This document shows, one piece after another, positions 19,481 to 49,628 of a stretch of 64,000 nt of DNA. Position 1 is the first letter of the stretch; each line of letters begins with the position of its first letter. A model generated the notes under the pieces. The model did not search any database. It saw only the letters and a list, made by a program, of their open reading frames with translations, and was not told where the DNA came from. A program made the position numbers and the translations under genes. This stretch comes from Buxus sempervirens (Eukaryota; Streptophyta; Magnoliopsida; Buxales; Buxaceae): positions 34,452,213 through 34,516,212 of the forward strand of contig OX387185.1 in assembly GCA_947561395.2 (NCBI GenBank). The letters run 5' to 3'.

Positions 19481-19614
19481 TCTGATTGAGCTTTAAATGA
19501 ATGAGCCATCAGTCCTGCAAAGTCACTTTCAAAAAAATGGTTCCGTCCCAAAGGAGCCAAAAACCGCCCGAAAGACCTTGGGAAGGGAACCACAAAAAAT
19601 TTTCAAAACCAAAA

Positions 19615-19864
19615 TTCCTAATGCTCCTTTCTGAACTTTTGTCTGATGCCATAGTCTTAGAAAGAGCACCAGGTTGGGCTTGTAATTTCTGATAAAAAAA
19701 TTTAAATATTTCTTCATCGAGGGTTGCCCAATCCCATGATTCCTAATGCTCCTTTCTGAACTTTTGTCTGATGCCATAGTCTTAGAAAGAGCACCAGGTT
19801 GGGCTTGTAATTTCTGATAAAAAAATTTAAATATTTCTTCATCGAGGGTTGCCCAATCCCATGA
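19615..19864. repeat. Perfect 125-bp tandem duplication
   Basis: Positions 19615-19739 and 19740-19864 appear base-for-base identical by eye, both starting TTCCTAATGCTCC and ending GCCCAATCCCATGA. It abuts exactly the point where the 5' LTR of element C is truncated (19865). The identity in a heavily mutated neighbourhood implies a recent event or an assembly artefact. Confidence 0.9.
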
Positions 19865-20298
19865 GCTTTCTCTTATTTACCTTTAAATCTCTCTCTGGGA
19901 AGCTTGAATTCCCAAAATTGACCTCCGAAATTGGTCAAATCCCCCCCAATTCATACCTTAGGCTTGAATTGGAAGGATCTAGACACATTTTTGTGTCTAC
20001 CCTTGGGACTTTCTTACCCCTCCTCTTGCCTATAAATAGAGGGCCTCTTCTCTAGCAAAGGGATAGAAAATTGGAAATCTAGAATTCTTGAAGAAGAAGG
20101 GAACCTCTACCCAATTCTCTATTCAAACTCTCAAGCATTCAAGGTAACTTCTAAACCATTCTATTTACTTTCATTTCAATTCAAGTACTCTCATCTTTTA
20201 CCTTTCTGTAGTGTAAGGCCATTAGGTGTGTTTGCAGCCTCAAACCAAGCTCAAAGAACTTTAAGCCACCTCTCTAGCCGTAAAACGTGAAGATAGAG

Positions 20299-22790
20299 TG
20301 TAAGCACCTCATTTTTGCACCCCTCTTAAAAGGTAGAAAGAAATAAAGCAAAATCCTAAAAGAAAGGCTAAAACCCTGAGGGGGCAAAAGTTGACTTTTT
20401 GATCAAGTGATAATTGACCACCTTGCTCTATCCCAGTGAATAGAGAATCCTGACACGGTTCCAATGCAATTGAGTTTGCTGGAATCGGGGCTCGGATGGA
20501 GAAGATATGAGCAAAACAGTCCCAAGGGCAAATAAGTCAGCTAAAAATATCTTAATTAAACTAATTAAGATGAATGGGAAATAATAAAAATTTGAGAAGT
20601 CTAATTCGTCCCAGTGGGCGGCTGAGTCATCTCAGCCATCAACTCAACCAAAAAAGGGGAAGAAAAAGGGTTCGTGACCGCATATGAAGTACGGTCAATA
20701 TTTCGGCCATCGCTCGCGCGAGCCAATCAGCACAAGCGGTGAGCAAAAAGTAACCGCACTTACAGTGCGGTTGCATGGTTCGTCAGTCTGTGCCTGCGCG
20801 AGTTTGTCCCCTAATCATTACTGAAAAGACAGGGCCAAAACCGCACGGTATGCGATTTTGTCCCAGTTTTCTATAAAAGCAAAATCCAAACAGTAAACAG
20901 GGGCTGGCTCGATTGGATGGTTTTCCACCTCTTCTCCCCCACTAACCCTGGTGCGAAATCCCCTCCTTTTGCTCCCCTTTGCTCCCTAAACCCCCAAAGC
21001 ATAATCCTAAGACCATTCTACCCTCCTTTCTCTCTTCTTCTTCACTTTCCATCCAAGCAAGGAGAGGGAGAGCTGCTGTTGGTGGCCAAAGGAGGGGCTC
21101 CAGCCATTTTGTTTGCTTCAAAGGGGTTCGAATACATCTTTCAAGGGTGTGTAAACCCTAAGGTAATGTTTCCTACAATTATTTGTTCAACATAAATCAA
21201 AATAGGCTTATTTCAAGCATGACTAGGGTGTTACCCATTTTGGAATGTTTTCTTTTCTCCTTCAGCATGATAATCTCTTTTTTTTCCTTCACTTATATCC
21301 ACTATTTTGGCATGAGAAAACTCCCATGCTAAGGGGAGCAGGCTTTCGGTTTCAAGGGAGGGATTATCCCACTTCAAGCATGGTTTAATGGCCTATTAGT
21401 GGATTGTTTTGTTATTGATTGTCCCGTTCAAACGGGGAAGAGTGTTCCCCCTTGTTTGTTTATCTAATGTACCCCATATTAATCCTCCTTTCTTCCCCTT
21501 CTGTAAATGATCTTGTTTATATGGTCTTGTGTTTGTTGAGCATAGAGTTAGTAATAGAGTTGGTTAGTTCACTTAGGTTAGATTGCATACATGTTTTCTT
21601 TTTGAGTGTTTGATCCCTCCATGCCCCCACTCTAATGCCTTTTAGTGGCTGCCATGTGTAATAAGCATGCTTATTCTTTCTACATGTATGGGTACGCATG
21701 TCCTAAATAGGTCCTCATGCAAGCATATCATCGTTAGAATCATGCTAAGCTATTCCTATGTTTGTGTGTCACTTGATTTCCATGCATAGGAGCCTACACA
21801 TGCACTCCACTGTTCATGCACATAATATGTAGAAATGCATGCATGTGCCTCATGGATCCCCTTGTCCTATTTATTTGTTGTTTTGTGAAGGATGAAGGAC
21901 CAAGGATGAAGGACTAAGGTGGGGGCACTCAAGCCCCTACCTTACTGCTGGAAAAATCCCAAGAGGGGAGGGGTAAACCCTAGGCCTTCCCCTTTGTCTT
22001 GCTTGGACCCAAAAAACACCCAAAAAGAGACCAAGGAGGGGTCTCCCCCCTCCACTTAACCACTGTGGGCCCACACAGAGACCCACAGCAAGTTGCAAAC
22101 CACCCTGGAAAGAAGCCGAGCTGGATCCCGAGGCCACTTTGGCCTTTCCTGGATTTTTGGGCCCGAACTATATACTCAGAGTGGTTCGAGCGAAACTACA
22201 CTTGATCTGTGGTTGTGCTTTGACTGCACAGGATGTGCAGTCGGTTCCCAGAAACCCTTAAGAAATCCATTTTGGGACCCGGTTGAACCCAATCTGACCT
22301 GAATGCACAAGACCCGACTTATGGGGTTTTTATGGTCAACCCAAATCCATTTTGAGACTGTGGGCCCGGATGGGCCCACCCTGGTTTTGTGGGTCTTCCA
22401 ACGGGGCCCATATCAGACCCAGATCACCTAACTAATCCAGATAAAATCAAATAAAGGGACCTACACAACTTTGGTGGTCCCCCTCCAGACCAATAAAATA
22501 TGCATGCTGGCATAGAAGCAGGGTGAGTTTAGAATTGAGTTGATTCGCAAACCAGGAAAACTAATGGGACCCGTCACTCGAAGGAGCGAACCAGGGTGTT
22601 TACGGGCTTCCCCGGACCGGAACCGAGCCCTTTCTCAGAATCTCAAGCCGCAGACCAAAATAGATATCCTTAGGGCATCCAGGTGTTTGCCTGCACCCCA
22701 TCAGGCAGTGGCGACTTCCTTTTCCCGTTTTACCTCTTTAGAAGGCATGCACCTTTTCCGTGCGCCTTCGCTGGTGCGACCATGCGCACA
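20299..22790 (+). mobile_element. Solo LTR E1 (family E), 2492 bp
   Basis: Starts TGTAAGCACCTCATTTTTGC and ends CCATGCGCACA. The flanking 5-bp repeats are TAGAG on the left and GAGAG on the right, and the undamaged target in the other LTR of C (44531) reads GAGAG, so the left copy has one mutation. It has a TATA box (CTATAAAAGC at 20871), hairpins just upstream (20676-20772), a donor-like CTAAG|GTAATG at 21163, and a second perfect hairpin at 22222-22242 (GACTGCACA / TGTGCAGTC). No internal element sequence is present, so it is a solo LTR. Related copies: 47309-50484 and the outer part of 30686-34485. Confidence 0.92.
20676..20772 (+). other. Hairpin cluster upstream of the E1 TATA box
   Basis: Three inverted repeats in about 100 bp: GACCG..CGGTC (20676-20696), the 12-bp palindrome GCTCGCGCGAGC (20712-20723) and a perfect 9-bp-arm hairpin AACCGCACT / AGTGCGGTT (20752-20772). 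TATA follows about 100 bp later. The sequence is unrelated to the cluster at the corresponding place in the other family E LTRs. Confidence 0.85.
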
Positions 22791-22926
22791 GAGAGCTAGG
22801 GAAAACAAGCTATGAGATGGATCCTTAGGTTTAGATCCCTCTTTGTTTGATTTTGATGTGATATGCCATATTCTTTATTTTGTGTGATTTTTATCCTCAA
22901 ATTGGGAGGAATTTCATAGATCTAAG

Positions 22927-25522
22927 TGTGGGACCATGGAAATCACCTATGTGACTACCTAATCTCTGCACAGAATTCACAAAACAAAGGAGTCGCCACC
23001 ATTCAAAATCAAGGTGTGAATGGACACCAAAGTGAGCATAATAAGAACAAAGTAGAGCCAAAGTAGCTTTAATTCATGTTCTTATCCAGAAATTAAGGGG
23101 GTTAGGTTATGAGTAAGAGAAGATGTTAGGCACCCTTATCCATACAAGATGGTTGCCATATGCCTATTCATGCTACATATATGCTTGCATACAAAAAATC
23201 ATTCAAAAGCATGTAAAAGTAAACAAATACATGTGTGATTCCTCCATATGAGTAGTCCAATAGATTCTGGACTCTCTCTATGGATATATCACCTCTAGGA
23301 CTTCATCATCCAAGTAAAAATCAAGGTAAAAATTGAAGGAAAGCAAATCAAACCAAATCTAAAAAAAAAATCAGGAGTTTAAGTGTTTGAGCTAGGTAAT
23401 TCAATTAGTCATATGTCAACCAATTCAAACTCAAATTGAGTGAAACTAAGGCCACTTGAAAGCTTATTTGAATTTGAAGACTTAGTAAAAATTTCATTCA
23501 AATCTGATAAAAAACAAAGGAGATGTGCTTATTCAAAGATGCTATTGTAAAACAGTAAAAGTGATTAGTAGCCAACTTTGAAAGCCTATTCGTGGAGATT
23601 GGCTCCATATAAATCCTTGAAAATTGGTGTAAATGAAATATGAGGTACCATCTTTCGAATATAATAGGCTTTACTTAAAACTTCATTCATTTGTAGCTTG
23701 TGTGCTCTCTCAAACACGTTTAGAGGATCACAGATTAATTTTGTAATCTGCTACTGAGCAGCACAGAGTCAATCAAGTACACATAACTCAAATCAAAGTG
23801 AAAAGTTATGAAATTAATTGAATTTGAAATTAGACTCATAAAGGAAGACTCAGAAATTGAAATCACTGAAATCGGAGTTGAAATGAGCCTTTGGTGCTCA
23901 ATCAAAATGGCAAGTACAACAAACTGTTCTAATCTGACTCATCAATTTCAATCAAATGGTTTGAAAAATCGGCTTCATATTAATTGCTTAAATTTTACAG
24001 GATTAAACTAAACTTCTTCACCTTTCACTTGCCTCTGAAATTATTCAAAAATTCATCCATATGATGAAGTTATAAATGATCCAAGACAGGGCACAGGTTT
24101 TGTCCAGATCTGTAAAATTTTAGTAAAATCAAGCCAAAACCATGTGCGTGTGTGTGCTTGTGATCCATTATATTTGACTTGAAAATATTTGAAATAACTT
24201 GAAAAGAATCCAAAAACATCTAGGGCACTTATTTGTCTTAGATCTCCCATTGTTTGGAGAGGGAGAGCCAAATTTACCCAAATTGGTTGAGATTTGCTCA
24301 ATTTGAAAGAGAATAGACCGTGAGGTCTTTTTTAAAAGATTAAAACCAATTAACATCAAATAAAAAAGTCCTAAGAAGTTGTTCCAAAGCCTTTGATCTC
24401 AGATCTACTATATTGAGCATAGTAGATCTAAGATCTATACATAATTTGACAAAATCAAGTAGATGTGTGCATTGAAATGTGTAGGAAATCAGATTTTAGG
24501 AGAGAATTGAGATCCAATACTATCAAAAAGTATGGATCTATATAATTCCTCCAGAATTAAAGACAAAACATACACAAACCGCAATCACACACAATCATAA
24601 ACAAATCATGCATATATTTCATCAAAATGGTTCTAAGCCTGAAGGATCAATTCCAATACTTTTTTCCTCTAGCTCTCTTTTCATGTTTTACAGCTAGAGA
24701 GGAGGCTTAAGGTATTTTAAGCATGGTTTGGGGCTTTAATCACACACAAGGCTTTACACTACAGAAATGTAGAAGATGAGAGTGTTTTAATTAAAAGAAA
24801 AATAAAGGAGAAAGGTTAGAGAATTACCTTGGATGCTTGAGAAGCTTGAGTGGAGAATTAGGCAGAGGTTCCCTTCTTCAGGAGCTCTCAATCTTCCAAA
24901 ATTCCAACCATTTGCTTGAGGAGAGGCCCTCTATTTATAGGTAAGAGCAAAGGTAATAAAGTCTTAAGGGTAGACATAAAATTGTGTCTAGATCCTTCTA
25001 ATTCAAATCTAAGGCATGAATTGGGGGGAATTTGACCAATTTTGGAGGCCAATTTGGGGAATTTAGGCTTCCTAGAGAGAGGTTTAAAAGTAAATAAGAG
25101 AAAGCTTGCGAGAACTTTCAATTTGAATTAAACTCTTCATGACCAAAAACTCAAGTTGGCTTCAAATAAAATACTTTATAGCTGAAAAAAAATTTCAGTC
25201 ACTATAGAATATATGTATGATCGAAATATTATTTCGAATCAAATTCAGTTATAACCCACGTGCAATTGCTGATGCGGCATAACTGTAAAAGATTCGAAAT
25301 GCGAGCTCATAGATATGAACCGAAATATTATTTCGGCTATACATGTAATTATTAATGATCGAAATATATTTTCGGCTACAAAAGAAATATTAATCACCGA
25401 AATACTTCTTCGGCTACAAATAACATGTTAATATCCGAAATTTAATTTCGGTTAATCTTGAATGAATTCTTTTCAACATATATTCATTCATTGTTTTATA
25501 CAGTGCAATTTGGGTGTCTACA
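22927..25522 (-). mobile_element. Solo LTR B (family C), inserted in reverse into its own family
   Basis: On the plus strand it starts TGTGGGACCATGG and ends TTTGGGTGTCTACA; read on the minus strand this is TGTAGACACCC...GGTCCCACA, the same termini as the 3' LTR of C. It is flanked by perfect 5-bp duplications CTAAG (22922-22926, 25523-25527). The intact target lies at 44661-44665 in the 3' LTR. It is thus a family C LTR in minus orientation inside a plus-oriented family C LTR. Minus-strand TATA (CTATAAATAG) at 24931-24940 and a donor-like CAAG|GTAATT near 24827. Solo LTR, 2596 bp. Confidence 0.95.
25220..25451 (-). repeat. Array of CCGAAAT...ATTTCGG palindromes in LTR B
   Basis: Imperfect palindromes begin at 25220, 25320, 25359, 25397 and 25435, the last four at a spacing of 38-39 bp. 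Examples are CCGAAATATTATTTCGG and TCGAAATATTATTTCGA; where one arm changes from C to T the other changes from G to A. The array lies about 280-500 bp upstream of this LTR's minus-strand TATA box, in the presumed U3. A matching array is at 43931-44064. Confidence 0.9.
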
Positions 25523-27131
25523 CTAAGCTACCTCATAGCTCTAGGTCTAAAATTCCTCCATAGATTTGATTTTTCACAAAAATTTTACAAAGCACATAGT
25601 CACTTGTGTTCGTTTTTTCAAGTCTAGGCATGGTTTTTTAGATCTATCATGTTCAATATGGTAGATCTAGGAATTTGGCCTTAAAATAAAATCTCAGGAC
25701 TATCATGATGTTTTTTATTCAATTTAGATCTCTTAGAAAAGGCCTCATGGTCAAATCTCTTTAGATCTAAAAAGTTCTTTATGGAATTTGGAATTTATTT
25801 GGTTCAAACTTTCCAAATTATGAGAGATTTGGACTAAATTCTTGTCCTAGATTTTTTTACAGACCTCCTAACTCATTTGAATTCATTTGGATTTGATTTC
25901 AAGAGCCGAATGCTCAGATCTAAGGATTTGGTACAGTCTTCACTCAATTTTTTACAAATTTGAACAGAACCTGTATCCTGTCTTGGATCATTCATAACTT
26001 CATCATATGGATGAATTTTTGAATGATTCTAGTGGCATGTGAAAGGTGAGGAAGTCTAGTTTAAGCCTGTAAAATTTGAGCAATTTACATGGAATTGATT
26101 TTTCAAACCATTTGATTGAAATTGATGAGTCAGATCAGAATAATTTGTTGTACTTGTCATTTTGATTGAGCACCAAAGGCTCAATTCAACTCCGATTTGA
26201 GTGATTTCAATTTCTGAGTTCATTTTCAAATCTAATGGGTTTCATAAATTTTCAATAAAAATTGAGCTGTGTGTGCTTGATTGATTCTGTGCTGCTCAGT
26301 AGTAGATTACAGAGTCAATCTGTGATCATTTGGGTATGTTTGGGAGACCACACAAACCACAAATGGATGGAGTTTTGCATGAGACTTATGCCATTCGAAA
26401 GATGATGCCTCATACTTTATTTACACCAATGTTCAAGGATTTATATGTGGCTAATCTCCACGAATAGGCTTTCAAAGTTGGCTACTCATCACTTTACATT
26501 GTGTTATATCAGTAGATTTGAGCAAGCCTAACTCTCTCGTTTTAAATTGGATTGGAATGAAATTTTTACTGAATCTTCTACTCCATATTATTTTTCAAAT
26601 GGCTTTGGTTTCACTCAATTTGAGTTTTAATTGAATGATTTACGATTGATTGAGGTTTCCTAGCTCAAATAGCTTAAGTTTGCATAGATTTTTCCAGATT
26701 TGGTTTGATCTTTTTTTCAATTTTGTCTTGATTTTCACTTGAATCATAATGTCCTGAGAGTGATGGGACCTTAGAGATCATCCAAATCCAATGGATGTAT
26801 CTCAAGGCAAATCACACATCTCTTTTGTCCCTTTTTGTTTATTTTCAAGAAATTTTTTATATGTAAGCAAGTTTAAGCATGAATAGCATATGACAACCAT
26901 CTTGTATAGATAATTGGGGGTGCCTAACACCTTCCTCTACTCATAGCCTAACCCCCTGCCCTATCTCTGGACTGAACCATGAATTAGAGCTAATTTGACA
27001 CTATTTCACTCTTTTATGCTCACTTTAGTGTCCATCCACACTTAAATCTTGGATGGTGACGACTCCTTGTTTATGTGAATTCCATGTGGTGTCTAGGAAT
27101 TCATCTAGGTGATTTCTATGGTCCCAACACT

Positions 27132-27148
27132 TGGGACTCCACTGGGGA
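27132..27148 (+). promoter_or_regulatory. Primer-binding-site-like sequence of element C
   Basis: TGGGACTCCACTGGGGA begins with the TGG expected for pairing to a tRNA CCA end and lies two bases after the LTR end at 27129. I do not assign the tRNA. The neighbouring motif TGGCGACTCC in the LTR ends (27054, 46213 region) is similar in sequence. Confidence 0.65.
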
Positions 27149-28950
27149 GATTTGAGGGTTTGAGCCATGTTTTGAATGTTTTACTATACTATATCATGAT
27201 TGCTTGCAATTTGTGTTTAATCATGCTAATCTACATGCTGATGTGCTTTTGTTTTAAATTCAATAGCTACTTGACATATGTTTGAGCGTGTCTTTTGTTA
27301 TGTTGAATGCTTAAATTGCTTGTATTTGTTTCTTTATACATGATTTCCATAAGATGCCTTGTTTAATAGAGGATTTATGTGTGGCTTCAAAAGAGTGGCA
27401 AGGGTGGGACGTTGTGTTGAATGTTTCGTATCTTTTCAAATGCACTTGAGCACTTATAAACTCCTCTTACACAGCCACCTATTACCTATAGGAAGTTGAA
27501 CCCGAATGTGTGTAGCTTGGTGCATCGAGGTCGTTACTTCAGAAAGCGAAAGTGAAAACATTCAGCCTAATTCTTTAGCCAATGATGCGCATGATGAGAA
27601 TGTGAATGGGTTATACACATTCACGCATGAAGGTGGTGTTATACACATTTTGACCAAAATGAGCCCAAACTACATATGGGAAAGGGATTTGCAATTGAAT
27701 GAGGTTGCTTACATGGTGTGGAGATATGATGTGAATATCATGTATGCTGGAAATAATGCTAGGTTATCTCATTTTTAATCCATGTTCCATAATTTTTTTA
27801 TACTTTCCAAGTTATGCTCAAGGTGTCCATGTCGCTTGGGAATTCCATGTTCCCTATATTTATCTCATTTTAAGCTTGGTGTGATCCTTAGGAAGGGTCT
27901 CAAGATTCTTTTAGATGCATTCCCTACCATTGGACCATAGGAGGCAACCCAAAGAGTTCAAGTCTCATGCATTGAGTGTCAAATTGTGGAGGGAGCCTAT
28001 GCCCACTTTATGCATGAAGGAGTACTAACTTCCATTTTGCAGGTATTCAAGATAAGGAGCATGTGAAGAAGCAAGAAAGATCAGAAGTTCTCTTTAGTTT
28101 TTTTAGTATAGAATTTTTTGTTTTGTTTTCGAAAGCCCATTTGGAAGGCAAAATTGTATTAATTGGCCCTTGAAGGCCCCTTTATATTTTAAGCTTATTT
28201 GTACATTTATTTCATTCCTTGGAGGGCTTTGAAAGCCATTTTATATGCACTTGTTGTCCATGGTTAATGTGTCTTTTGTATACTAATAAGTACCCCTTCT
28301 TGTGTTTTCTTTGTGCCTATGCATATACATGCACATGTCTAAAAGGTCAAGCCCAACTTGAGGCATTCCTTATTAGGTGCAAATAATGGCGGACAATGAG
28401 TTTGAAATGACTAAAAGATGCCCACATGATTTGGAAAGCAAATGAATAAAGAAGAAGCTTTTATGGATTAACCTAATATATAGATCGGTTACAAAGGTTT
28501 ATATTCATAACCGATATTAAAGTTCGGTAAAGCTTTTATTTATAAATAACTGAATAAATTATTTGGTTACATTATAAATAGCCTTTTACCGATCTGATAT
28601 TTTAGTTACAAATCAGAAACTTCCCAAAAACCTTTCACTCTCCAATTCTTTCAATATATCATGGTTAAAACATTGTAAATAATCTGTGAGCATCTTAATT
28701 GCATTAATTGAGATCAATTCAAATGTTCAAAGGATGAAATGAAGGATTAAGCTCAATTTGGATTAGTTTTACCTTCAATTCAACTTCCAAATCAAAATGT
28801 GATCATGGATTGAATGTGCCATCCTTTTTGGGGGTCTTCTCTACAAACATCCTTTAATGAAGGTGCTAAACATAAAAGCATATCAAGGTTTCCAAATGTG
28901 CCTAAATCTCCAATTTTTTTGGGGGCATTTTGTAAAATTTCCTTCATAAG
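27149..28950 (+). other. Leader of element C, non-coding
   Basis: Sequence between the PBS-like site and the hairpin array. The longest frame (27506-27778, 90 codons) has no recognisable domain, although it is acidic and not low complexity. It includes the three-unit palindrome remnant at 28511-28610. No splice sites were confirmed. Confidence 0.5.
28511..28610 (+). repeat. Internal 39-bp-period palindrome trio, U3-like
   Basis: Units begin at 28511 (CCGATATTAAAGTTCGG), 28550 (CTGAATAAATTATTTGG) and 28589 (CCGATCTGATATTTTAG), exactly 39 bp apart. Spacing and motif match the LTR arrays at 25320-25451 and 43931-44064, but this copy sits in the internal leader, not in an LTR. Confidence 0.7.
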
Positions 28951-28955
28951 GTCAT

Positions 28956-30410
28956 TTGAGAACCTTTAAATCTCAAATTTTCAAAATTGATTTTCAAAAT
29001 GATCATGGCTTTTCAAAATAATTCTCATAAGTCAATTGGGAACCTTTGAATCCCAAAAACTTTTCAAAATAAATTCCCAAAGGTCCATTGGGAACCTTTG
29101 AATCTCAATAGCTTTTCAAAAAAAATTCTCATAGGTCAATTGGGAACCTTTGAATCCCAAAAAGCTTTTTCAAAATAAATTCTCATAGGTCAATTGGGAA
29201 CCTTTAAATCCCAAAAACTTTTCAAAAATAATTCCATAGCTCCATTGGGAACCTTTGAATCCCAAAATGTTTCCAAAATTATTCTTTTAAGTCCTTTGGG
29301 ATCCTTGGAATCCCAAAAAAAAATCTTTTAAAATTCTTTCTCATAGATCAATTGGAAACCTTTGAATTCAAAACAAAAATAAAATAATAATAATAAAAAA
29401 ATGCAAAAAGAAAAATAATAAAAAAATCCATTTGTTCGGAGCCTCTTTTCAACTCCATAAGCTGAAAATCATTTCAAAAACTTCATAGGCTATATAAAAG
29501 CCTTTAAATTTCAGAATTCCTCCAAATTTCATAATTCATTCCATAGGCTCCTGAAAACCTTTGAATTTCAGATTTTTTTATCTCTTAGGCCCTTGGAAGC
29601 CTACTTAATTCCAAGAAATCCTCATAGGCCCTGGAAGCCTGCATAATTCCAAGAAATCTTCATAGGCCCTTAGGAAGCCTAAGTAATTCCTAAAAATTCA
29701 TAAGACTGCTGGAAGCCTGAAATTCCAGATAATTCAAATTTCATAGGCCCTTGGAAGCTTGCATAATCCCAAGAAATCCCCATAGGCCGTTGGAAGCCTG
29801 AGAAATTCCAAGAAACACTTTATAGGCTCCTGAAAGCTTGCGTAATTTCAGGGGGCATTTGGAAGCTTTGATTCCAAAATTTTAATAGGCCTCTGGAAGC
29901 CTGAGTAATTCTAGAAACCACTCATAGGACCTTTGAAAGCTTGAAATTTCAGAAATTACCCTTTGAGATGTCTGAAAGCCTTTAAATTTTAGACATTCTC
30001 ATATTTTTGGGCCGTCTATAAGCCTCGAAATTATAGACCCATCTTATCTTTGGGCTATCTAAAATGCCTCTGAATTTTAGACAACTTTTTGGGTAATCTA
30101 TAAGCCTCTGAATTATAGACACATCTTATCTTTGGGCTGTCTAAAAGCCTCTGAATTTTAGACAACTTTTTGGCCGTTTAAAAGCCTCTGAATTTCAAAC
30201 ATCTTTCACATCATTTTGGGTCGTCTAAAAGCCTCTAAATTTTAGACACATTTCTTTGGGCTGCCTAAAAGCCTCTGAATTTTAGACACATATTCTTTGG
30301 CCCGCCTAAAAGCCTCTGAATTTTAGACACATTCTTTAGGCCATCTAAAAGCCTTTGAATTTCAAACATTTATCATTCTTGGGGATCTTTTGGAAGCCCT
30401 TAAATTCCAA
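28956..30410 (+). repeat. Array of about 28 covarying hairpins in the leader of C
   Basis: Units of about 40-55 bp, each with a 6-8-bp inverted repeat around a 9-10-nt loop. Early units: TTGGGA/TCCCAA with loop ACCTTTGAA (29036, 29140, 29194, 29245). Middle units: CTTGGAA/TTCCAAG (29592), TTAGGAA/TTCCTAA (29670), CTGGAA/TTCCAG (29709), CCTGAAA/TTTCAGG (29829). Late units: GTCTATAA/TTATAGAC (30014) and GTCTAAAA/TTTTAGAC (30139, 30223). Loops keep A-A/G-C-C-T-x-x-(x)-G-A-A while stems change on both sides together. Spacers keep CATAGG or TTTGGGC words. No open frame crosses it. The gag start lies 220 bp downstream. Confidence 0.88.
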
Positions 30411-30632
30411 TTTTGATCAAAACAAAAAGGAAAAAATATATAAAAGAAAAAAAAATTGTAATTCAAACTCCTGTTCACCCAAACATGCATACATGCATCC
30501 ATGAATTGTGTGAGTTTGAGTTGAAATATGCACTAATTTCGTTTCTTTTTCTTTTCCTTTCTCAAGGTCTTCTTTGGAAGTAATCATTGTTGCATTCCGA
30601 AGTCTATACTTGCTGAGATCAAAAGTTGCCAA
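30411..30632 (+). other. Leader segment before gag
   Basis: A-rich and T-rich sequence between the hairpin array and the gag ATG at 30633, with a short ATGCATACATGCATCCATG run (30484-30502). No other feature seen. Confidence 0.5.
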
Positions 30633-33600
30633 GATGAATCCTGAGAATCAATCGACTGTTTCTGCCCATGATTTTAACCAGTTACTGTGAGACAAGGAAA
30701 AATCACCTAGATGAATCCCTCCGTCATCACACGGGCTTAACGAAATGGGAGAGTCGCCACCATTCAATTTTAGGTGTGAATGGATACCAAAATCTTCAAA
30801 ATAAGCAAAAAGGCAAAACTAGAGTAAAAATAACTCTACTTGAAAATAAAATCCAGAGATGGGTAAGGGAATTAGATTATGAACGGGGAAAGGTGTTAGG
30901 CACCCCCATTCACCCACACAAGGTGGTTGCCAAGTGTTGTTCATGCTCAAAAAATAAGAAAGCTTGCTAAAATAATCAAAAACCTTGAAAAAGGATTAAA
31001 CAAATGTATGATATTTCCACATGATAAATCTAATGAATTCCAGATCCTCTTTTATGTCAATATCACTTCTGGGACATCACCATTAAATGGAAATCAAAGC
31101 AAAACTTGAAAAAAACCAAGTTGAGCCAAATCCGAGAAATTTGGTAAAAGATAGAGCCATTTGTCTTGAAATCATTCAAATCCAGTTTAAATTGAATCAA
31201 ACCAAATCCATTTGAAATATTATGATAAATAGAAGACTCATGCAAATTTTCAATTAAATCCGGTCAAAACCCTAGGAGTTATGCTCCTTTGAAATTTGCT
31301 GTTGAAAATCAGTAAAAGTAACAAGTGGGTAACTTTGGAAATTCATTTGGAAAAATTGGCTCCATATAAATCCGTGAATTTTTGCATGAATAAAGTATGT
31401 AGAGCCATCTTTCAAATGAAACTAGCCTCATACAAAAATTCATCCGGATGTGCCTTTGGTGACCTCCCAAACAGGCCCCGAAGATCACAGATTAACCCAG
31501 AAATATGCTGTTGAACAGTTCTGAGTAAATCAATCACCTACGACACAAATGGAATCAAAAAATTATGAAACCAAATGGATTTGAAATTAGACTTCTGAAG
31601 GAAAACATAGAAACAAATATCACTCAAATCGGACTTAAAACGAACACATGGTGTTCATTCGAAGTGACAGGTTCAGCAATCAGACCTGAACTGTCCTGTC
31701 AACTTCGACTGAATGGTATCAAAAATCCCCTTCATAAAAATTAATGAAATTTTACAGGCATAAACTGGACAGCCTCATATTTCCCACGTCTCTAGAGTCA
31801 CTCCAAAATTCATCCGGATGATGAATTTATGAGTGTTCGAAGTTAGGGTACAGATGCTGTCCAATTTTGTCATTTTCAAGTAAAATCAATCCAAAACAGT
31901 GATCAAGTGTGTATAATCCGTACAATCTAAATCAAAATCATTTCAAAAGGTATTGAAAAACCTCCAGGAGGAAATTGGGCACAAGTTTGGCTCACCATTC
32001 TCTCCGATTGGAGAGAATATGCCAAAAACCCTAAAGTGGAGCAAAAATGCCCAAAACCGAGAGGTTAGACCTAGAGATCTTCAATACTCGAGATAAACTT
32101 GTTTGAAATCAATAAGAAACATCCCAGAAATGCTTGGGGCTATTTATTTCAGATCTATCACAATGAATGCAATAGATCCTAAATACAAGCCGATTCTGAC
32201 AAAACGAGTGCAATATATGCATGTGTACAAATTAACTCTTCAATCACATACATAACACCATATGACATTCATATCAATCAAATGGGGTTCTAAAAAACTT
32301 AGGGTTCCGTTCCATTCTTGTTTCTCTTAGTTCTCTCTCCCCGTTTTACGGTTCTTCGAGATAGTTTTGGGGTACTTTGAGTATGAAACGGTTTTCATAG
32401 AATCAATTCCCAGTCTCGTTTCCCCTAGATCCCTTTCCACGTTTTACAGCTAGAGGGAGTCTCCAGGTACTTTGAGTAGGGAAAGGGGTTTCAAGTACAC
32501 AAATTAGGCCATTATTCTACAGAAAGGTAGAAGAAAGATCTATTTCTAGAATTTAAGAACATAAAGGAAAATGGGTTTTAGGCTTACCTGGAGGTGCTGG
32601 AAGCAATGGGGCAGAGGGTTTTAGGTTTACCTGGGTTTTTGAGCTCTGTAACACTTCCCCGGTGTTCCCCAGACTCCCAGGAGACCTTTAAACATACACT
32701 GAAATTAATCTAACCTACTTCATGACACAACTCCAAATCTCTTTAAAGAAAACCAATCCCGATTATTGTAAAGAAACAACTACGAACTAACAGCTACAGG
32801 GGGTAACGGGGTGAACGGAGCAACAACAAGACAGCAGGTGGCAGGGGGTTAGGGGAGCATGTTGGCAAGTCTAGCAAAAACAAAAAAAGACAATAATAGA
32901 CAGAGATTGCATGCGCAAGAAAAAAAATAAACTTTCACCTACGCCTGGACTGGACCTCCGAGCATGTCAAATAACCGTCAGGGAAAGGAAAAAGAGGGGG
33001 GGTTTATAGGGATACAAAAGACTTACTTAATCGGGAACACACTCCCTTGAAAACGAACACAGAATAATCCCCACAAACACTAAGGTGAAGGACCCCAAAC
33101 GATCGCGAACACGACTCTCGTTGTCCCATGAAGTTACACACGTGGTCCACCGGACCTTGAGAGACTTTCGTGCTCATGGGAGTGGAATTTTAGTGCATGC
33201 AATCTACTGAGAAAATTTTCTAAACATGGCAACATATCTCTGCTATTAGACATGCTGTGTAAAATACAAGGGAGAACATTACCTTGGAGCTTTCGAAACC
33301 CTAGAGGGGAGCGAGCTCCTCCTTGAAGCGCAAATGGTTGCTGGAGCAGCTTCTCTCCACGCCAACAGCGAGTCCTCCCTTTTGGTCGTTAGGAAATGGA
33401 GAAGGGTTGGATGATCTTAGGATGGGGGCTTGGGGTATTTCGGAAGGCAGGAGAGGGTAGAGATGGAACCAGTCAAGGTGGAGGAGACGGGTTATCGCCG
33501 GCGTCCAAAGAACCAACGAAGGAAATCTCCAGCCAAAGAATCCAACCAGGAAAATAGCCCAAAAATCCCAACCCAAGAAAAGCTCTTGACCGAAAAAATC

Positions 33601-33674
33601 CCCCAACCAAAAGAGAGCCAACCCTTTGCGAGAGAGATGGCCGCAGGCTTTATAGGTAGGAAAAAGAGGGTCCG

Positions 33675-33730
33675 CCAGGTTGGCGCCTGGCTGGTGCCGA
33701 GCGCATTTCGCGCTCGCCCTGCTTGTGCGA
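33675..33730 (-). other. Hairpin cluster upstream of the LTR D TATA box
   Basis: CCAGG/CCTGG (33675-33690) and a perfect 7-bp hairpin CGAGCGC/GCGCTCG (33698-33716), nested in a wider TGCCG...CGGCA pairing ending at about 33735. It begins about 20 bp upstream of the minus-strand TATA box. GC-rich and unlike the clusters in E1 or E3. Confidence 0.75.
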
Positions 33731-34002
33731 GCGGCAAAATGATTGAAAAACCATTAATGCGGCTGCCAAATGGTTGGAAAATCCGGTTTTTTCAGATTTA
33801 GTTCCTGTATATTTTTGATTTAATCCGATATTCTGGGATATTTACAGATTTGGTCCTTGGGATATTTCGTACATTTGGATATTCACGGATTTGATCCCCG
33901 AGATATTTTCCTGCGCAACCTGCCACGTGCGCAGCTTTTTGCCACGTATGCAGTTTGCCGATTTTGCTGTTCGGAAACTTCGACAGCTAATATCTTCTCC
34001 AT

Positions 34003-34438
34003 CCGGACTTCGATCTAGGCAAACTCAGTTGCGTTAGGACCGTATCGGAGCCCTCTATCCAATGACATAGGGGTAAGCATCTAGATCGGGGTTTAGCAGA
34101 AAGCCAACTTTCGGCTCCCCTCAAGTTTGACCGGCCCGCAGGACCTTCATCCGGACTCTGATTCCTGCAAACTCAATTGCGTTGGAACCATGTCGGGATT
34201 CTCTATCCAATGACATAGAGGTAAGCATCTGGATCGGGGTTTAGCAGAAAGTCAACTTTCGGCTCCCCTCAAGTTTGACCGGCCCACAGAACCTTCATCC
34301 GGACTCTGATTCCTGCCAACTCAGTTGCGTTGGAACCGCGTTGGGATTCTATATCCATTGAGATAAAGCAACGTGGCCAATTATCACTTGATCAAAAAGT
34401 CAACTTTTCACCCCTTGGGGTTTGACTTTTTGTCCAGG
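34003..34438 (-). repeat. 148-bp tandem repeat near the start of LTR D
   Basis: CCGGACT words at 34003, 34151 and 34299 mark units exactly 148 bp apart, each with GCAAACTCA.TTGCGTT, CTATCCAATGACATAG, GGATCGGGGTTTAGCAGAAA and CTCCCCTCAAGTTTGACC. E3 has diverged units of the same repeat at about 49985-50400, and E1 has about one. The unit count therefore varies between family E LTRs. Confidence 0.9.
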
Positions 34439-35753
34439 GTTTGCATTTCTGGCTTTTCCAGGAGTGCAAAAATGAGGTGCTTACAGCTACATTTCCCCAA
34501 CCTCAAGTACCACCTCCACCACAACCAACATTTCTCCAACCCATCCTTGGAACCATCAAAACATGGAGGAAGTGGATGAACTTGAGGAGAAAGAGAAAGA
34601 ACAGCTAAGGGAGGAATTGGAAAAGAAATTTATGGAAAAACTTGAAAAGATTCAAGATGAGTTGAGGGAAGTGAAGGGTGTAAGTTCATATGGGGGAACT
34701 AACTTTGAGGATTTGTGCTTTTATCTCGATGTTAGCCTTCTGCCCAAATTCAAGTGTCCGGACTTCGAGAAGTATGATGGCACTAGGTGCCCAATGAGCC
34801 ATTTGAAGCTATATTGTGGGGCATTGTGACAATTTAGGAAGGATGATGGAATCCTAGTTCGATTGTTTCAAAGGAGTTTGACGGGGCCTGCATTAAGGTG
34901 GTTTTCCATGTTAGACCACTCAAAGATTCCAAGATGGAAAGATTTGGTTGACGTTTATTTGGTTCAATATCGCTTTAACTCCGAAATCATGCCAGATAGG
35001 TACAATATGATGAGAATGACAAAGAGAAGTGATGAGACAATTAGGCACTATGCAAAGAGGTGGAGAGAATCAGCTGCATAGGTCAAGCCACCTACTGGAG
35101 AACAGGAAATGATTTCCACTTTTACCACCACACTAGGAAAACCATTCTACAATCATTTGGTGGGTCAGACTACCACTAATTTTGCAGCCCTGGTGCAAGT
35201 CACAGATCGGATTGAGGATGCTATAAGGTTTGGGAAAATTGTGGACTCCTTTGCACTCCAGTCTTTGGCCAACCAACAAGGTTCCATTCCCTTTACTTCA
35301 CAGAAAAGGAAGAATGATAATGGAAGAAAGAAGAATGAAGAAGGGAGGCAGAGGTGAATATGGTGCAACCTTCTAGGTAACCCTGTCAAATCAACGTCAA
35401 TTCATCCCCTGCCAAACTAATCCATCAAAATCCCTTGCTTCCTATTCAAATCAATGTACCCACAGGCCAACCAGTTCCCAAGGAGGAAAATGAAGTAAGA
35501 AAGAGAAGAGAATTTTCAAAACTACCTATGAAGCCATCTGAACTTCTCCCAACCTTACTACAGAAAGGGTATGTGACTCTAAAACAACCAAGTCCTCATG
35601 CAAGCAAGGGGAAGAATTATGATCCATTTGCAAAATGTGAATTTCACATGAGCACCCCAAGGCATAACATAGATTAGTGTTTAGCCCTAAAGCATGCAAT
35701 ACAGGATTTATTGGACAATAATACTTTGTCTTTCAATTCAGTCACGCCCGCTC

Positions 35754-43286: not shown

Positions 43287-46281
43287 TGTAGACACCCCAA
43301 AATTGCATGATTTTTTATAAATCTTGAAGGAGAGAAATATCTTATTGGAATTTTCAAATTCTTAGCATTGGGTTTGAGATCCTTAACCCATTTGAATCTA
43401 AAACCACAAAGGAAAAGCCCGAATTCAATTTTTTACGCGAAGTCAAACTTTTCCTATTGAATTTTGTTGACTTTTGACCCCAAAAAATGAAATATTTTTT
43501 AAGACAAGATTTCAATATAATTTTTCTCGGTAATAAGGTTTTTAGCAATGTTATTGCATAAATGAATTTTTTGAGTCTTTAAATCTTAACAAATACCTTA
43601 GCATTAACATGTTTATTTTTTTAACCGGACCTGAAAACCCGGAATTTAGCCTTGAACTGCAAAGTTGACTTTTTATTCATTTGGAATTTGGGTCTGGAAC
43701 TATTTTTAATGGATTCAAATTTGGGGGGGCGGGGGGTTGTTTGCTTATTTACATGTAATATCTTAAGTAAATGGTGATTAAAAAATACAAGGACATTTAC
43801 TTAAATGATATTACATGTAAATAAGTATTACATGTGCAGGTAAGGGTCAAAACTATGCAAAAGTTGTGCAGAAAGGTTTTTTTGCCCTGAATCAAAAATT
43901 CAATTCGGTTAAGCTAAATTTTATGTGTAACCGAAATTCAATTTCAGTCATGAAGTATTATATGTATGATCGAAATTGAACTTTGGTCATGAAGTGTTAT
44001 ATGTATGTTCGAAATTATATTTTGATTATAAAGGGTTTTGTGTGTAGCCGAATTGAGTTTTCGGCTATAAGTGAATTTGTTCAATTTGAAAATTCACACG
44101 AGTTTTCTCTTATTTACCTTTAAATCTTTCTCTGAGAAGCCTGAATTCCCAAAATTGACCTCCGAAATTGGTCAAATTCCCCCCAATTCATACCTTAGGC
44201 TTGAATTGGAAGGATCTAGACACATTTTTGTGTCTACCCTTGGGACTTTCTTGCCCCTCCTCTTGCCTACAAATAGAGGGTCTCTCCTCTAGCAAAGGGC
44301 TGAAAAATTGAATATCTAGAACTCTTGAGGAAGAAGGGAACCTCAACCCAATTCTCTACTCAAACTCTCAAGCATCCAAGCTAACTTCTAAACCATTCTC
44401 TTTACTTTCATTTCAATTCAAGCACTCTCATCTTCTACCTTTATGTAGTGGAAGGCCATTGGGTGTGTTTGCAGCCCCAAACCAATCTTAAAGTACTTTA
44501 AGCCACATCTCTAGTCGTAAAACGTGAAGAGAGAGCTAAGGGAAACAAGCTATGGGATGGATCCTTAGGTTTAGATCCCTCTTTCTTTGATTTTGATATG
44601 ATATGCCATATTCTTTATTTTGTGTGATTTTATCCTCAAATTGGGAGGAATTTCATAGATCTAAGCTATCGCATAGCTCTAGGTCTGAAATTGCTCCGTA
44701 GATTTGATTTTTCACACAATTTTACAAAGCACATACTCACTTGTGTTCTGTTTTCAAGTCTAGGCATGGTTTCTTTGATCTACCACGTTCAATATGGTAG
44801 ATTTGAGAATTTGGCCTTAAAATAAAATCTCAAGACTATCATGATGTTTTTTATTCAATTTAGATCTCTTAAAGAAGGCCTCATGGTCAAATCTCTTTTG
44901 ATCTAAACAGTTCCTTATGGAATTTGGACTTTATTTGGTTCGAATTCTCCAAATTATGAGTGATTTGGACTAAATTCTTGTCCTATATGTTTTTAAAGAC
45001 CTCCTAATTCATTTGAATTCATTTGGATTTGATTTCAAGAGCTGGATGCTCAGATCTAAGGATTTGGTATAGTCTCCACTCAATTTTTTACAGATTTGGA
45101 CGGAACCTGTATCCTATATTGAATCATTCGTAACTTCATCATATAGATGAAATTTTTGAATGATTCCAGAGGCATGTGAAAGGTAAAGAAGCCTAGTTTA
45201 ATTTGCAAAATTTGAGCAATTTATTTGGAGTTGATTTTTCAAACCATTTGATTGAAGTTGATGAGTCAGATCATAACAGTTTGTTGTACTTGTCACTTTG
45301 ATTGAGCACCAAAGGCTCATTTCAACTCAGATTTAAGTGATTTCAATTTTTGAGTCTTCCTTTATGAGTTTATTTTTAAATCCAATTGGTTTCATAAGTT
45401 TTCAATAAGAATTGAGCTGTATGTGCTTGATTGATTTTGTGCTGCTTAGTAACAGATTACAGAGTCAATCTGTGATCATTTGGGCATGTTTGGGAGAGCA
45501 CACAAGCCACAAATGGATGGAGTTTTGAATAAGGCTTATGTCATTCGAAAGATTATGCCTCATAATTCATTCACACCAATTTTCAAGGATTTATATAAAG
45601 CCAATCTCTACGAATAGGCTTTCAAAGTTGGCTACTCATCACTTTTCATTGTGCTATATCAGTAGCTTTGAGCAAACCTAACTCTCTCGTTTTAAATTGG
45701 ATTTGAATGAAATTCTTACTGAGTCTTCTACTCTATATTATTTTTCAAATGGCTTTTGTTTCACTCAATTTGAGTTTGAATTGAATGATTTATGGTTGAT
45801 TGAAGTTTCGTAGCTCAAATAGCTTAAGTTTGCACATATTTTTCCAAATCTGGTTTGATCTTCTTTTTTCAATTTTTATCTTGATTTTCACTCGAATCAT
45901 GATGTCCAAAGAGTGATGGAACCTCAGAGATCATCCAAACCCAATGGATGTATCTCAAGGCAAATCACACATCTCTTTTGTCCCTTTTTTGTTTATTTTC
46001 AAGAAATTTTTTTATATGCAAGCAAGTTTAAGCATGAATAGCATATGTCAATCATCTTGCATGGATCAGTGGGGGTGCCTAACACATTCCCCTACTAATA
46101 ACCTAACCCCCTGCCCTATCTCTGGACTAAACCATGAATTAGAGCTAATTTGACTCTATTTCACTCTTTTATGCTCACTTTAGTGTCTATCCACACTTAG
46201 ATCTTGGATGGTGGCGACTCCTTGTTTATGTGAATTCCATGTGGTATCTAGGATCATCTAGATGATTTCCATGGTCCCACA
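43287..46281 (+). repeat. 3' LTR of element C, 2995 bp
   Basis: Starts TGTAGACACCCCAAAATTGC and ends TCCATGGTCCCACA. From 44097 it is collinear with the three pieces of the 5' LTR and on the opposite strand with solo LTR B. It preserves the uninterrupted targets of E1 (GAGAG at 44531) and B (CTAAG at 44661). The TATA equivalent is CTACAAATAG (44268), and the donor-like site is mutated to CAAGCTAACT, so this copy may be transcriptionally weakened. The flanks GCAGC and TTAAT do not match, as expected for a 3' LTR rather than a solo LTR. Confidence 0.88.
43931..44064 (+). repeat. 39-bp-period palindrome array in the 3' LTR of C
   Basis: Units at 43931 (CCGAAATTCAATTTCAG), 43970 (TCGAAATTGAACTTTGG), 44009 (TCGAAATTATATTTTGA) and 44048 (CCGAATTGAGTTTTCGG), each 39 bp apart, about 200 bp upstream of the TATA-like box. 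Same motif as in LTR B. Confidence 0.88.
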
Positions 46282-46928: not shown

Positions 46929-47308
46929 TGTTAGGAATATAATAAAATATATAAATTTCACCCCTACTATTTGTCCCACATTGGGAATTCATTATCATTT
47001 CACCCAACATATAAGAGATGGACTTCCCTCACCTTAATGCCTAGGTTTTAAGGTTGAGGCCCCTCCTCTTATGTGTTGTTGGGCTTTCTACATGGTATCA
47101 GAGCCTTAGGCAAACGCCAAGGTCTTGGGTTTTAACCTCCACTCCACCTGTTGAGAATCAAATATTCCACGTGTATGGCCTCCCTAAAATGGGTCCCCTA
47201 AAGTGGGTTTGAGTCCGGCTCACACGTGAGGGGGAGTGTTAGGAATATAATAAAATATATAAAGTTCACCCCTACTATTAACTTGAGCTGTTGGTAGGTG
47301 AATCAAAT
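46929..47308 (+). mobile_element. TRIM-like miniature LTR retrotransposon
   Basis: 5' LTR 46929-47092 (TGTTAGGAATATAATAAAAT...TTTCTACA), then a PBS matching initiator-methionine tRNA (TGGTATCAGAGCC, 47093), about 120 bp of non-coding interior, a polypurine tract GAGGGGGAG (47228-47236) and the start of a 3' LTR (47237, TGTTAGGAATATAATAAAAT again). The 3' LTR is cut after 72 bp by solo LTR E3. The two LTRs agree for about 42 bp and then diverge, so one has an internal deletion. It has no coding capacity, fitting a TRIM. Confidence 0.8.
47093..47105 (+). promoter_or_regulatory. Primer-binding site (tRNA-iMet type)
   Basis: TGGTATCAGAGCC directly follows the CA end of the 5' LTR. This is the usual copia/TRIM PBS complementary to the initiator-methionine tRNA 3' end. 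Confidence 0.85.
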
Positions 47309-48343
47309 TGTGCGCACCCGATTTCGGTCGCACGGCGAGGCGCACGCAAAACTATGCGTGCCTCGGGATTTGTTTGGAGTCGCCACTGCCTGATGGGGTG
47401 CAGGCAGACACCTGGGTGCCTAAGTTCTTCTACTAAGGCTTTTGGTCTGCGGCTTTGAGATTCTAAGTAGGGGCTCGGTTGCGGTCTGGGGAAGTCCGTA
47501 GACACCCCAGTCCACCCCGTCAAGTGACGGGTCCCATAAGTTTCCCTGTTTTTGAGTCAACTCAGTTGGTTTCTCACTCACCCGATTCCTATTCCAGCAT
47601 GTAATTTGATTAAGTCTGGCGGGACCGCCAAAGTGGTGTGGGTCCCTTTACTTGATTTTATCTCCTTAATTAAGATGATCTGGGCCTGGTGGGGTGGGCC
47701 CCGTTGGAAGGCCCACGGTATCCCTTGGTGGGCCAAGTGTGGCCCTTTGGACTTTGGTTCAATTTAAATTGCTTTTATTTTGGAGTTCAAGTTGGATTAG
47801 TTAAGTGGATTTCATGCCAAAAGTGGGCCAGTGATTGCTTAGTGGGCCCTTGAGTGGGCCCCACAATTGTTTGCCAAGTGGTTTTGATTATCTTGCTTAA
47901 TCCATGCCAAAATGGGCCAAGCATTGGGCTTGGGGCCCTTTACCTGGGCTTGGGCTTGAAAGCCCAAGGCTTCCTGAGTTAGGGTTTGGGAACCCTAACC
48001 TTGGTTGGGTTCATGGGCTTAGTGGGCCCGATAGGCCCTGCCCGTGGTCTCGGCCAAACCACATCCTACTTTAAGCATGCATGGCCCAACTAGGGCTTGG
48101 GTGGGCCTCAAGTGGTCTGGCCCACTCAAATCTTTTATTTATCTTAGTTAAGCAAGAATAAATTGGTCGGGCTTGGTGGGCCCCGTTGGAAGGCCCACCG
48201 GAAACCAATTTGGACCGAGTCGGTCCATGGCCCATCTTGGGTTTCCGGGTCACCCGGAAACCCTACTGGTTCTCCCGGATTTGATCAAACAAACCAAAAA
48301 ATCACACAAGATCAGCAAAAATGGCAAAAAAGGAATTCTGGCA

Positions 48344-48450
48344 GTGTAGCCGGCCTGAGATGCCGGTTACACACAGGGCTCTGTGTATCCGGCATCTTTA
48401 GCCGGCTACACATGGGCTTCAGTTGATCCGGCCTGAGTTGCCGGATCAAC
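48344..48450 (-). other. Four consecutive GCCGG hairpins in LTR E3
   Basis: GTGTAGCCGGC/GCCGGTTACAC (48344-48372), ACACAG/CTGTGT (48371-48386), GTGTATCCGGC/GCCGGCTACAC (48383-48411) and a perfect 11-bp pair GTTGATCCGGC/GCCGGATCAAC (48422-48450). They lie downstream of TATA, in the transcribed part. The equivalent place in E1 holds an unrelated perfect hairpin (22222-22242). Confidence 0.88.
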
Positions 48451-49628
48451 CCACAGAAGCCTTTTCTCGAATTTTTGCATTGGGGCTGGGTTTCTGGGTC
48501 TTCTAGGATGTTCTAGGGATTGTGTGGGCTCCTGTGTGAGCCCACATTAGTTCAGGTGAGAGCCCCTTGGCTCTCTTGAAGGGTTTTGCGAATTAAAGGG
48601 AACAAATGGGGGCTAGGATTTGCCCCCTCCCTTTCTAGACCAAAACATTACATAACAGGGATTCAAGTGCCCCTATTCCCGGTTTCTTTTCCCAGAAAAT
48701 CCCACAATTAATTTACACAAAACAGCAAATAAACCGAGAAGCCTACTCGATCCTCGAAGTAGCAAAACCCATGCTTTAAAGGGTGATCATCCCATGCATG
48801 CATAAAAGAAACAATCCATAAACCACATGTAGACCAAGTGAACAACAAACCTAGCATGCATCACACATTAGTCTAACCTACTTGATTAACGAGAAAGTGA
48901 TCTAAAGAAGGATGGAAAGGGGGGTTACATGAGGGATACATTAGAATGAAATGGAAGGAACATGCTCCTCCGTTAAACATAAAATGATACCAACATAAAT
49001 ATCTCTACGGAATAGCAACCCTATACCACTTAAAATCCATGCTTTAGGAACTATCCTTCTCCTAAAATACCCATTTTTACCTCATGCAAGCAACATCCTT
49101 GTGATGGCAAATATCAAACAAAATAGTGAAAACAAAGGGACAAGCATGCATTTACCCTAGTAGCAAGCACATGACATGCACAAAAAAACCAACATGCTTC
49201 AAATCATGTCATCTTCATATATGTGAAATAAGACAAAGAAAGGAGCTCACCTTGGGAGTTTAGACTCCTTTTTGAATGTGTGGAACTCCTTAGAAGCTCC
49301 ACCAGCAGCCGACCACCTCCTTTGGTTCCTCCAAGGAGCCACTCCAAGTTCCTTCCAAGACTTGCAAAATGAAGGAGAAGAAGGAAGGGGAAGGGTTAGG
49401 TTCTTTAGGTTATGCTTTTGAGTTTTTGGGAGCCAAAGGAAGGTAAGGTAAGGGGAGAAGGAAGGAGGAAGTGAGTGAGGTGAGAGAGAACTCCAAACCA
49501 AAAATCAGCCGACCTCCACAATTGCTAGGGTTTTTTCTTTTTATAAGCAATGACCAAAATGCAAATATTTCCCTACTTTATCACCAAAAGCATACCCCTT
49601 TCTCATTCATACCCTTTTTTTAAAAATA

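Follow-up and report, generated by a model that had tools for sequence, protein, structure and literature searches.

The 64,000-nucleotide stretch of DNA analyzed here (the window) appears from its content to be nuclear DNA of a plant, in which LTR retrotransposons are nested. One of these elements, here called E1, could be followed along the + strand. Its 5' LTR is present as three pieces (19857-20298, 22790-22926, and 25523-27126) that match positions 44094-46279 of the 3' LTR, which spans 43287-46281 (+ strand), starts with TGTAGACACCCC, and ends with GGTCCCACA; the last part of the 5' LTR is taken as 25523-27129. A nested solo LTR of the E1 family lies at 22927-25522 on the - strand, again starting with TGTAGACACCCC and with CTAAG on either side. 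Two bases past the 5' LTR end is a PBS-like site, TGGGACTCCACTGGGGA (27132-27148, + strand), which we take to be of the tRNA-Arg type. A perfect 125-bp tandem duplication (19614-19864) adjoins the truncated start of the 5' LTR.

Downstream of the PBS-like site, the + strand carries an array of tandem hairpin units (28954-30412), the main subject of this report. Directly after the array there is a short open frame (30634-30685) whose ATG at 30634 is a possible gag start, reading MNPENQSTVSAHDFNQL by eye. This frame is interrupted by a later solo LTR of a different family (30686-34485, - strand, flanks GTTAC/GCTAC), which separates the leader from a gag piece at 34830-35081 (+ strand, stop-to-stop frame) matching Retrotrans_gag PF03732 with an E value of 1.1e-7; five other pieces in the same Pfam scan gave nothing above the cut-off. 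Between 38100 and 43300 there are 17 sense ORFs with a length of 50 aa or more, and the 11 of these that were scanned against Pfam gave no match to a pol family. Ten of the pol-region ORFs gave a single Pfam match, to a frog skin peptide propeptide, which we rejected as implausible and under the cut-off (E 3.5e-4). Because the scanned ORFs hold no pol match, E1 looks either non-autonomous or heavily decayed, and we read it as an old, broken, apparently pol-less Ty3-type LTR retrotransposon. A first-pass annotation of the window had placed the array in the leader of a non-autonomous element. The features on either side (5' LTR and PBS-like site upstream, gag downstream) and the 11 ORFs without pol agree with this placement, which we make by position and strand only.

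The array consists of 31 units, where the first-pass annotation had described about 28 hairpins at 28956-30410, and all seven of the stems quoted there (7/7) are found in it. Sub-array 1 (28954-29374) contains 8 units at a spacing of about 52 bases, with stems of the TTGGGA/TCCCAA type and the loop ACCUUUGAA. Sub-array 2 (29492-29954) contains 12 units spaced about 39 bases apart, with CTTGGAA/TTCCAAG-type stems and loops of 7 to 10 nt, and sub-array 3 (29970-30367) contains 10 units at about 41 bases, with GTCTAAAA/TTTTAGAC-type stems and the loop GCCUCUGAA. A final single unit, TTGGAA/TTCCAA, lies at 30388-30412; all are on the + strand. Core spacings range from 51 to 80 bases in sub-array 1, 29 to 57 in sub-array 2, and 37 to 47 in sub-array 3, with one additional gap of 142 bases, and an A-rich stretch (approximately 29370-29430) separates sub-arrays 1 and 2. 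One degenerate candidate unit near 29441 was excluded from all counts. The units arose by tandem duplication, which also produced higher-order copies. They comprise 18 distinct inner arm pairs.

Hairpins with a stem of at least 6 bp and a loop of 7 to 10 nt are concentrated here: we counted 22 in the array, whereas 239 other segments of 1.45 kb averaged 2.9 (maximum 11) and 200 dinucleotide shuffles averaged 2.5 (maximum 9). Both strands of the window had no match to an Rfam family at the gathering score, and we therefore rejected a known RNA family as the identity of the array. Outside the array, unit-like hits numbered 23 on the sense strand and 22 on the antisense strand. One unit-like hairpin, TGGGAA GCTTGAA TTCCCA, occurs in the E1 LTR copies (19902 and 44139; degenerate in one copy), and given these background hits it may be there by chance. 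In the array, ATG is rare and CAT frequent: across 28940-30420, sense ATG occurs 6 times compared to 18.6 in shuffles (0 of 300 as low) and CAT occurs 39 times compared to 25.4. Avoidance of upstream AUGs was set aside as an explanation because the leader 5' of the array is ATG-rich (63 versus 48.5) and because the repeats are not independent.

We quantified stem pairing across all units. In the inner six stem pairs, 174 of 186 cells are Watson-Crick, 4 are G-U, 6 are A-C, and 2 are other combinations. When all eight stem pairs are counted, 202 of 248 cells are Watson-Crick, with 5 G-U, 23 A-C, and 18 other, as the two outer positions are frequently unpaired. The register of the units was chosen by eye and by pairing score, which biases these percentages upward; this choice alone, however, creates no matched variation between the arms. 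When arms were shuffled among units within sub-arrays (20000 shuffles), the number of Watson-Crick cells averaged 155.9 and never exceeded 170, compared to the observed 174.

Tandem units share ancestry, and we compared the array with three tree-aware nulls in which the substitutions on the tree were re-placed over columns or branches. The Watson-Crick fraction of 0.935 compares with 0.41, 0.62, and 0.67 in these nulls (reached in 0 of 1000 runs each), which include neither gene conversion nor unequal exchange, and the units compared are not independent. Compensatory cells numbered 42, compared to 9.3, 3.5, and 5.4 (reached in 1, 0, and 0 of 1000). The summed G statistic was likewise lower in the nulls, the observed value being reached in 2, 0, and 0 of 1000. 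As for pair types, the observed number was equalled in 641, 28, and 26 of 1000 null runs, and pair-type counts alone are indecisive. Among APC-corrected column pairs, the top four are all stem pairs.

This result held when the analysis was varied. A rerun that added the columns of a second helix (S1, described below) and used a new tree gave 0 of 2000 on four measures for the main stem (S2); a tree built from non-stem columns gave 0 of 1000 on three measures, as did the 18 distinct arm pairs alone (0 of 1000 on three measures). A covariation count tool reported 94.8% of cells paired compared to 80.9% when shuffled (0 of 500) and a covariation of 0.564 compared to 0.270 (0 of 500), with smaller differences for pairs showing two-sided change (5 versus 3.3; 8 of 500) and for pair types (9 versus 8.0; 69 of 500). 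In the same tool, sliding the arms by a single column reduces pairing to 56 to 58%. The stem arms of the 31 units covary beyond what descent of the repeats accounts for. The annotation that drew attention to the array had staked its claim on a comparison with a null following the tandem-repeat phylogeny, and the array exceeded that null (0 to 1 of 1000, 0 of 2000, and 0 of 1000).

The claim that loops stay alike while stems covary was also borne out, in that the loop ends (RCCU...AA) are nearly invariant across units. The first loop base is G in 22 units, A in 8, and T in 1, followed by C in 31 of 31, C in 27 of 31, and T in 30 of 31; at the 3' end, the penultimate base is A in 30 of 31 and the last is A in 31 of 31.

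We next considered when pairing was maintained. Between the two E1 LTR copies we counted 141 differences over 1602 sites. Provided that both LTRs belong to E1, approximately 8.6% of pairs, or 16 of 186, are expected to have changed since insertion, and the 12 non-Watson-Crick inner pairs fall within this expectation (P = 0.18 for at most 12). If the LTRs do come from one element, pairing was near-perfect at insertion and may even have been complete, and the present mismatches need no cause other than post-insertion decay. Arms that changed in concert around a constant loop suggest that a repeated structure was maintained during the active life of the element.

The suggestion that imperfect units differ by G-U-compatible changes applies to 4 of the 12 non-Watson-Crick inner cells; 6 of the others are A-C and 2 are of other kinds. 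With 4 G-U versus 6 A-C cells, there is no preference for G-U and no bias toward an RNA strand, and a G-U bias as proof of RNA selection is therefore absent. We also folded the array region, a check proposed along with the original claim: the global fold of segment 1 is ordinary (z = -1.0, with 13 of 100 shuffles equally good), and 29420-30420 folds on both strands, more stably on the antisense (-280) than on the sense strand (-240.1) in a comparison made with no shuffle control. Global folding was accordingly dropped as a line of proof, and selection on RNA, as the first-pass annotation had it, is not established by the wobble counts or by the segment 1 fold.

A more specific feature of the units is a potential second helix. 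The bases flanking the stem, (A)GGC or AGGU, are complementary to the loop sequence GCCU or ACCU, so that the four bases 5' of the stem can be matched with the first four loop bases (S1). Because the flank complements the loop and S1 interleaves with S2, the units could form H-type pseudoknots. When the offset that pairs best is taken, 17 of 31 units have an S1 score of at least 3.5 of 4, whereas 500 flank shuffles gave 1.08 such units on average and never more than 5; control loop offsets gave S1-like matches in 8, 3, and 3 of 31 units. When offsets were instead assigned manually by homology, S1 is 78.2% Watson-Crick compared to 56 to 58% in two nulls (reached in 23 and 31 of 2000) and 89.5% paired when G-U is included compared to 72% (48 and 34 of 2000). 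Covariation within S1 was not significant, since its 8 compensatory cells were reached by 359 and 562 of 2000 nulls and its G statistic by 626 and 711 of 2000.

We also applied a rough energy model, which combines Turner stacks from ViennaRNA with assumed values for the pseudoknot penalty and groove limits. In this model, a pseudoknot is possible in 21 of 31 sense units, 11 of 31 antisense units, and 37 of 465 shuffles, and it is predicted to be more stable than the nested fold for 12 of the 31 sense units, for none of the 31 antisense units, and for 1 of 465 shuffles. The predicted preference reaches at least 2 kcal in just 2 of 31 sense units. Given the common descent of the units and the assumed limits in the model, these results do no more than suggest an H-type pseudoknot in the units.

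Considering all of these data, our preferred reading takes the array as a cis element of tandem, structure-forming units within the 5' leader of a Ty3-type element that is now dead and was probably non-autonomous; we give this reading a probability of about one half. Under it, the units would have been selected for their folded sense RNA while E1 was active. The folded unit would often be an H-type pseudoknot with (A/G)GGC/GCCU or AGGU/ACCU as S1, an L1 of approximately 1 to 3 nt, the covarying stem of 6 to 8 bp as S2, an L2 of 0, and an L3 mostly of 5 to 6 nt with an AA end. Least securely, the approximately 30 equivalent folds may have given Gag, or an RNA-binding protein of the host, multiple sites on the genomic RNA. 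Loop ends that hardly vary, stems that are free in sequence, and a flank that matches the loop are together what is expected if shape and loop are read by a protein or by the tertiary fold of the RNA itself. A stronger version, in which approximately 30 tandem H-type pseudoknots with drifting stems and a fixed loop presented Gag or a host protein with a multivalent RNA scaffold that a non-autonomous element used to compete for packaging, seems to us unlikely.

The main competing explanation, which the first-pass annotation had also named and which we consider doubtful but worth taking seriously, is mutational. Template switching at a hairpin, by a DNA polymerase or a reverse transcriptase, rewrites one arm from the other, so that stems drift yet continue to pair with little or no selection on RNA. 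Such arm copying agrees with the lack of RNA-strand bias in the wobble counts and with changes of both arms on a single branch, including A-T to T-A, of which we found 13 on the stem-free tree and 7 among the distinct haplotypes. Template switching with the loop retained has been described for RNA genes (PMC8794818), and quasi-palindrome correction has been described in yeast (PMC3820800). However, arm copying leaves both the near-invariant loop ends and the matched S1 flank unexplained, and these fit selection better. One-sided intermediates also exist, with G-U in units 3, 19, 20, and 21 and A-C in units 12, 15, 26, and others, although they may represent later decay. Selection and arm copying may both have been at work.

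We regard it as quite unlikely that the arms were kept or shaped at the DNA level, whether by hairpin or cruciform structures of the DNA or cDNA or by small-RNA targeting from the host. The symmetry between G-U and A-C cells would suit a DNA structure, whereas the variable arms speak against a sequence-specific dimeric DNA-binding site and the pseudoknot geometry, in our rough model, would favor sense RNA. Stems of 6 to 8 bp are short for Dicer substrates, which weighs against a small-RNA route. A precedent for targeting does exist in Sirevirus LTRs, whose palindromes are hotspots of small-RNA mapping (PMC5311732). Finally, an ordinary minisatellite, with arms complementary merely by descent from one hairpin-bearing repeat, accords with the tandem and higher-order duplication of the units but is very improbable given the covariation above the tree-aware nulls and the arm shuffles within sub-arrays, even with pair-type counts indecisive.

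Several known systems resemble the array in part. Arrays in Tat-lineage elements (Ogre, Retand) are likewise tandem, variable in unit length and sequence, and located inside plant Ty3-type elements, but they occupy the 3' part of the element, downstream of gag-pol (PMC7004042, PMC11963269), whereas the array described here, at 28954-30412, is upstream of the gag piece at 34830-35081. Paired arms go unmentioned for Tat-type arrays in the available text of these reports, and the terms "hairpin," "inverted repeat," and "secondary structure" occur 0 times in that of PMC11963269. Membership in Tat/Ogre is itself assigned by RT-RH-INT phylogeny and the aRH domain (PMC6317226). In Sireviruses, which are copia-type, a single element can carry as many as 32 short palindromic boxes in its non-coding parts; these have constant arms and a CGG-CCG core and are located in the LTRs or upstream of env (PMC2829016); here the arms vary (18 distinct pairs, with no CGG-CCG core), the loop is constant, and the location is the gag leader.

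For the preferred reading of a structured leader element, one precedent is the Ty1 pseudoknot, which, like the possible pseudoknots and possible Gag sites here, is at the 5' end of the genomic RNA of an LTR retrotransposon. The Ty1 case, in a yeast copia-type element, is one long-range pseudoknot, whereas we propose approximately 30 small local ones. The stems of the Ty1 pseudoknot are preferred Gag sites, and destabilizing the pseudoknot abolishes preferential binding there; point mutations in these stems left packaging unaffected, which counts against a packaging analogy (PMC8396678). Consecutive small H-type pseudoknots have been described for the 3' ends of TMV and STMV (PMC4683447, PMC3551766), but the STMV model of three pseudoknots in the 3' part is mostly unsupported by SHAPE (PMC3551766), which counts against a string of pseudoknots. 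Template-switch hairpin mutations share with the array a two-sided stem change and a kept loop, and they were described for RNA genes rather than for a tandem array (PMC8794818).

We searched for relatives of the array in virus and prokaryote collections. Exact patterns matched 0, 0, 1, and 1 stretches of viral contigs, and the two stretches found had no similarity to the window (blastn, E 1e-3); genome contigs gave 0 pattern matches, and a gag piece pattern gave 17 matches with no confirmed relative. Because these collections hold viruses and prokaryotes, the negative results say little about plants. In the open-access literature searched, at a level short of full texts, we saw no retrotransposon leader with an array of covarying hairpins or pseudoknots. 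For plant Ty3-type elements, the array offers a concrete candidate for a structural signal that is repeated within the gag leader, on the evidence of a single sequence from one element. The units act as evolutionary replicates within one molecule, making the array a natural experiment on how stem pairing is kept during sequence change, by selection through single steps or by arm-copying mutation.

The window also contains a second, different cluster of GC-rich palindromes at 47251-48750, with 12 hairpins of at least 7 bp, where 100 shuffles averaged 1.5 (maximum 6). Examples are GGTGGGCC/GGCCCACC at 48175 and GTTGATCCGGC/GCCGGATCAAC at 48422. Part of this cluster, 47378-47716, is similar to 22389-22716 on the opposite strand.
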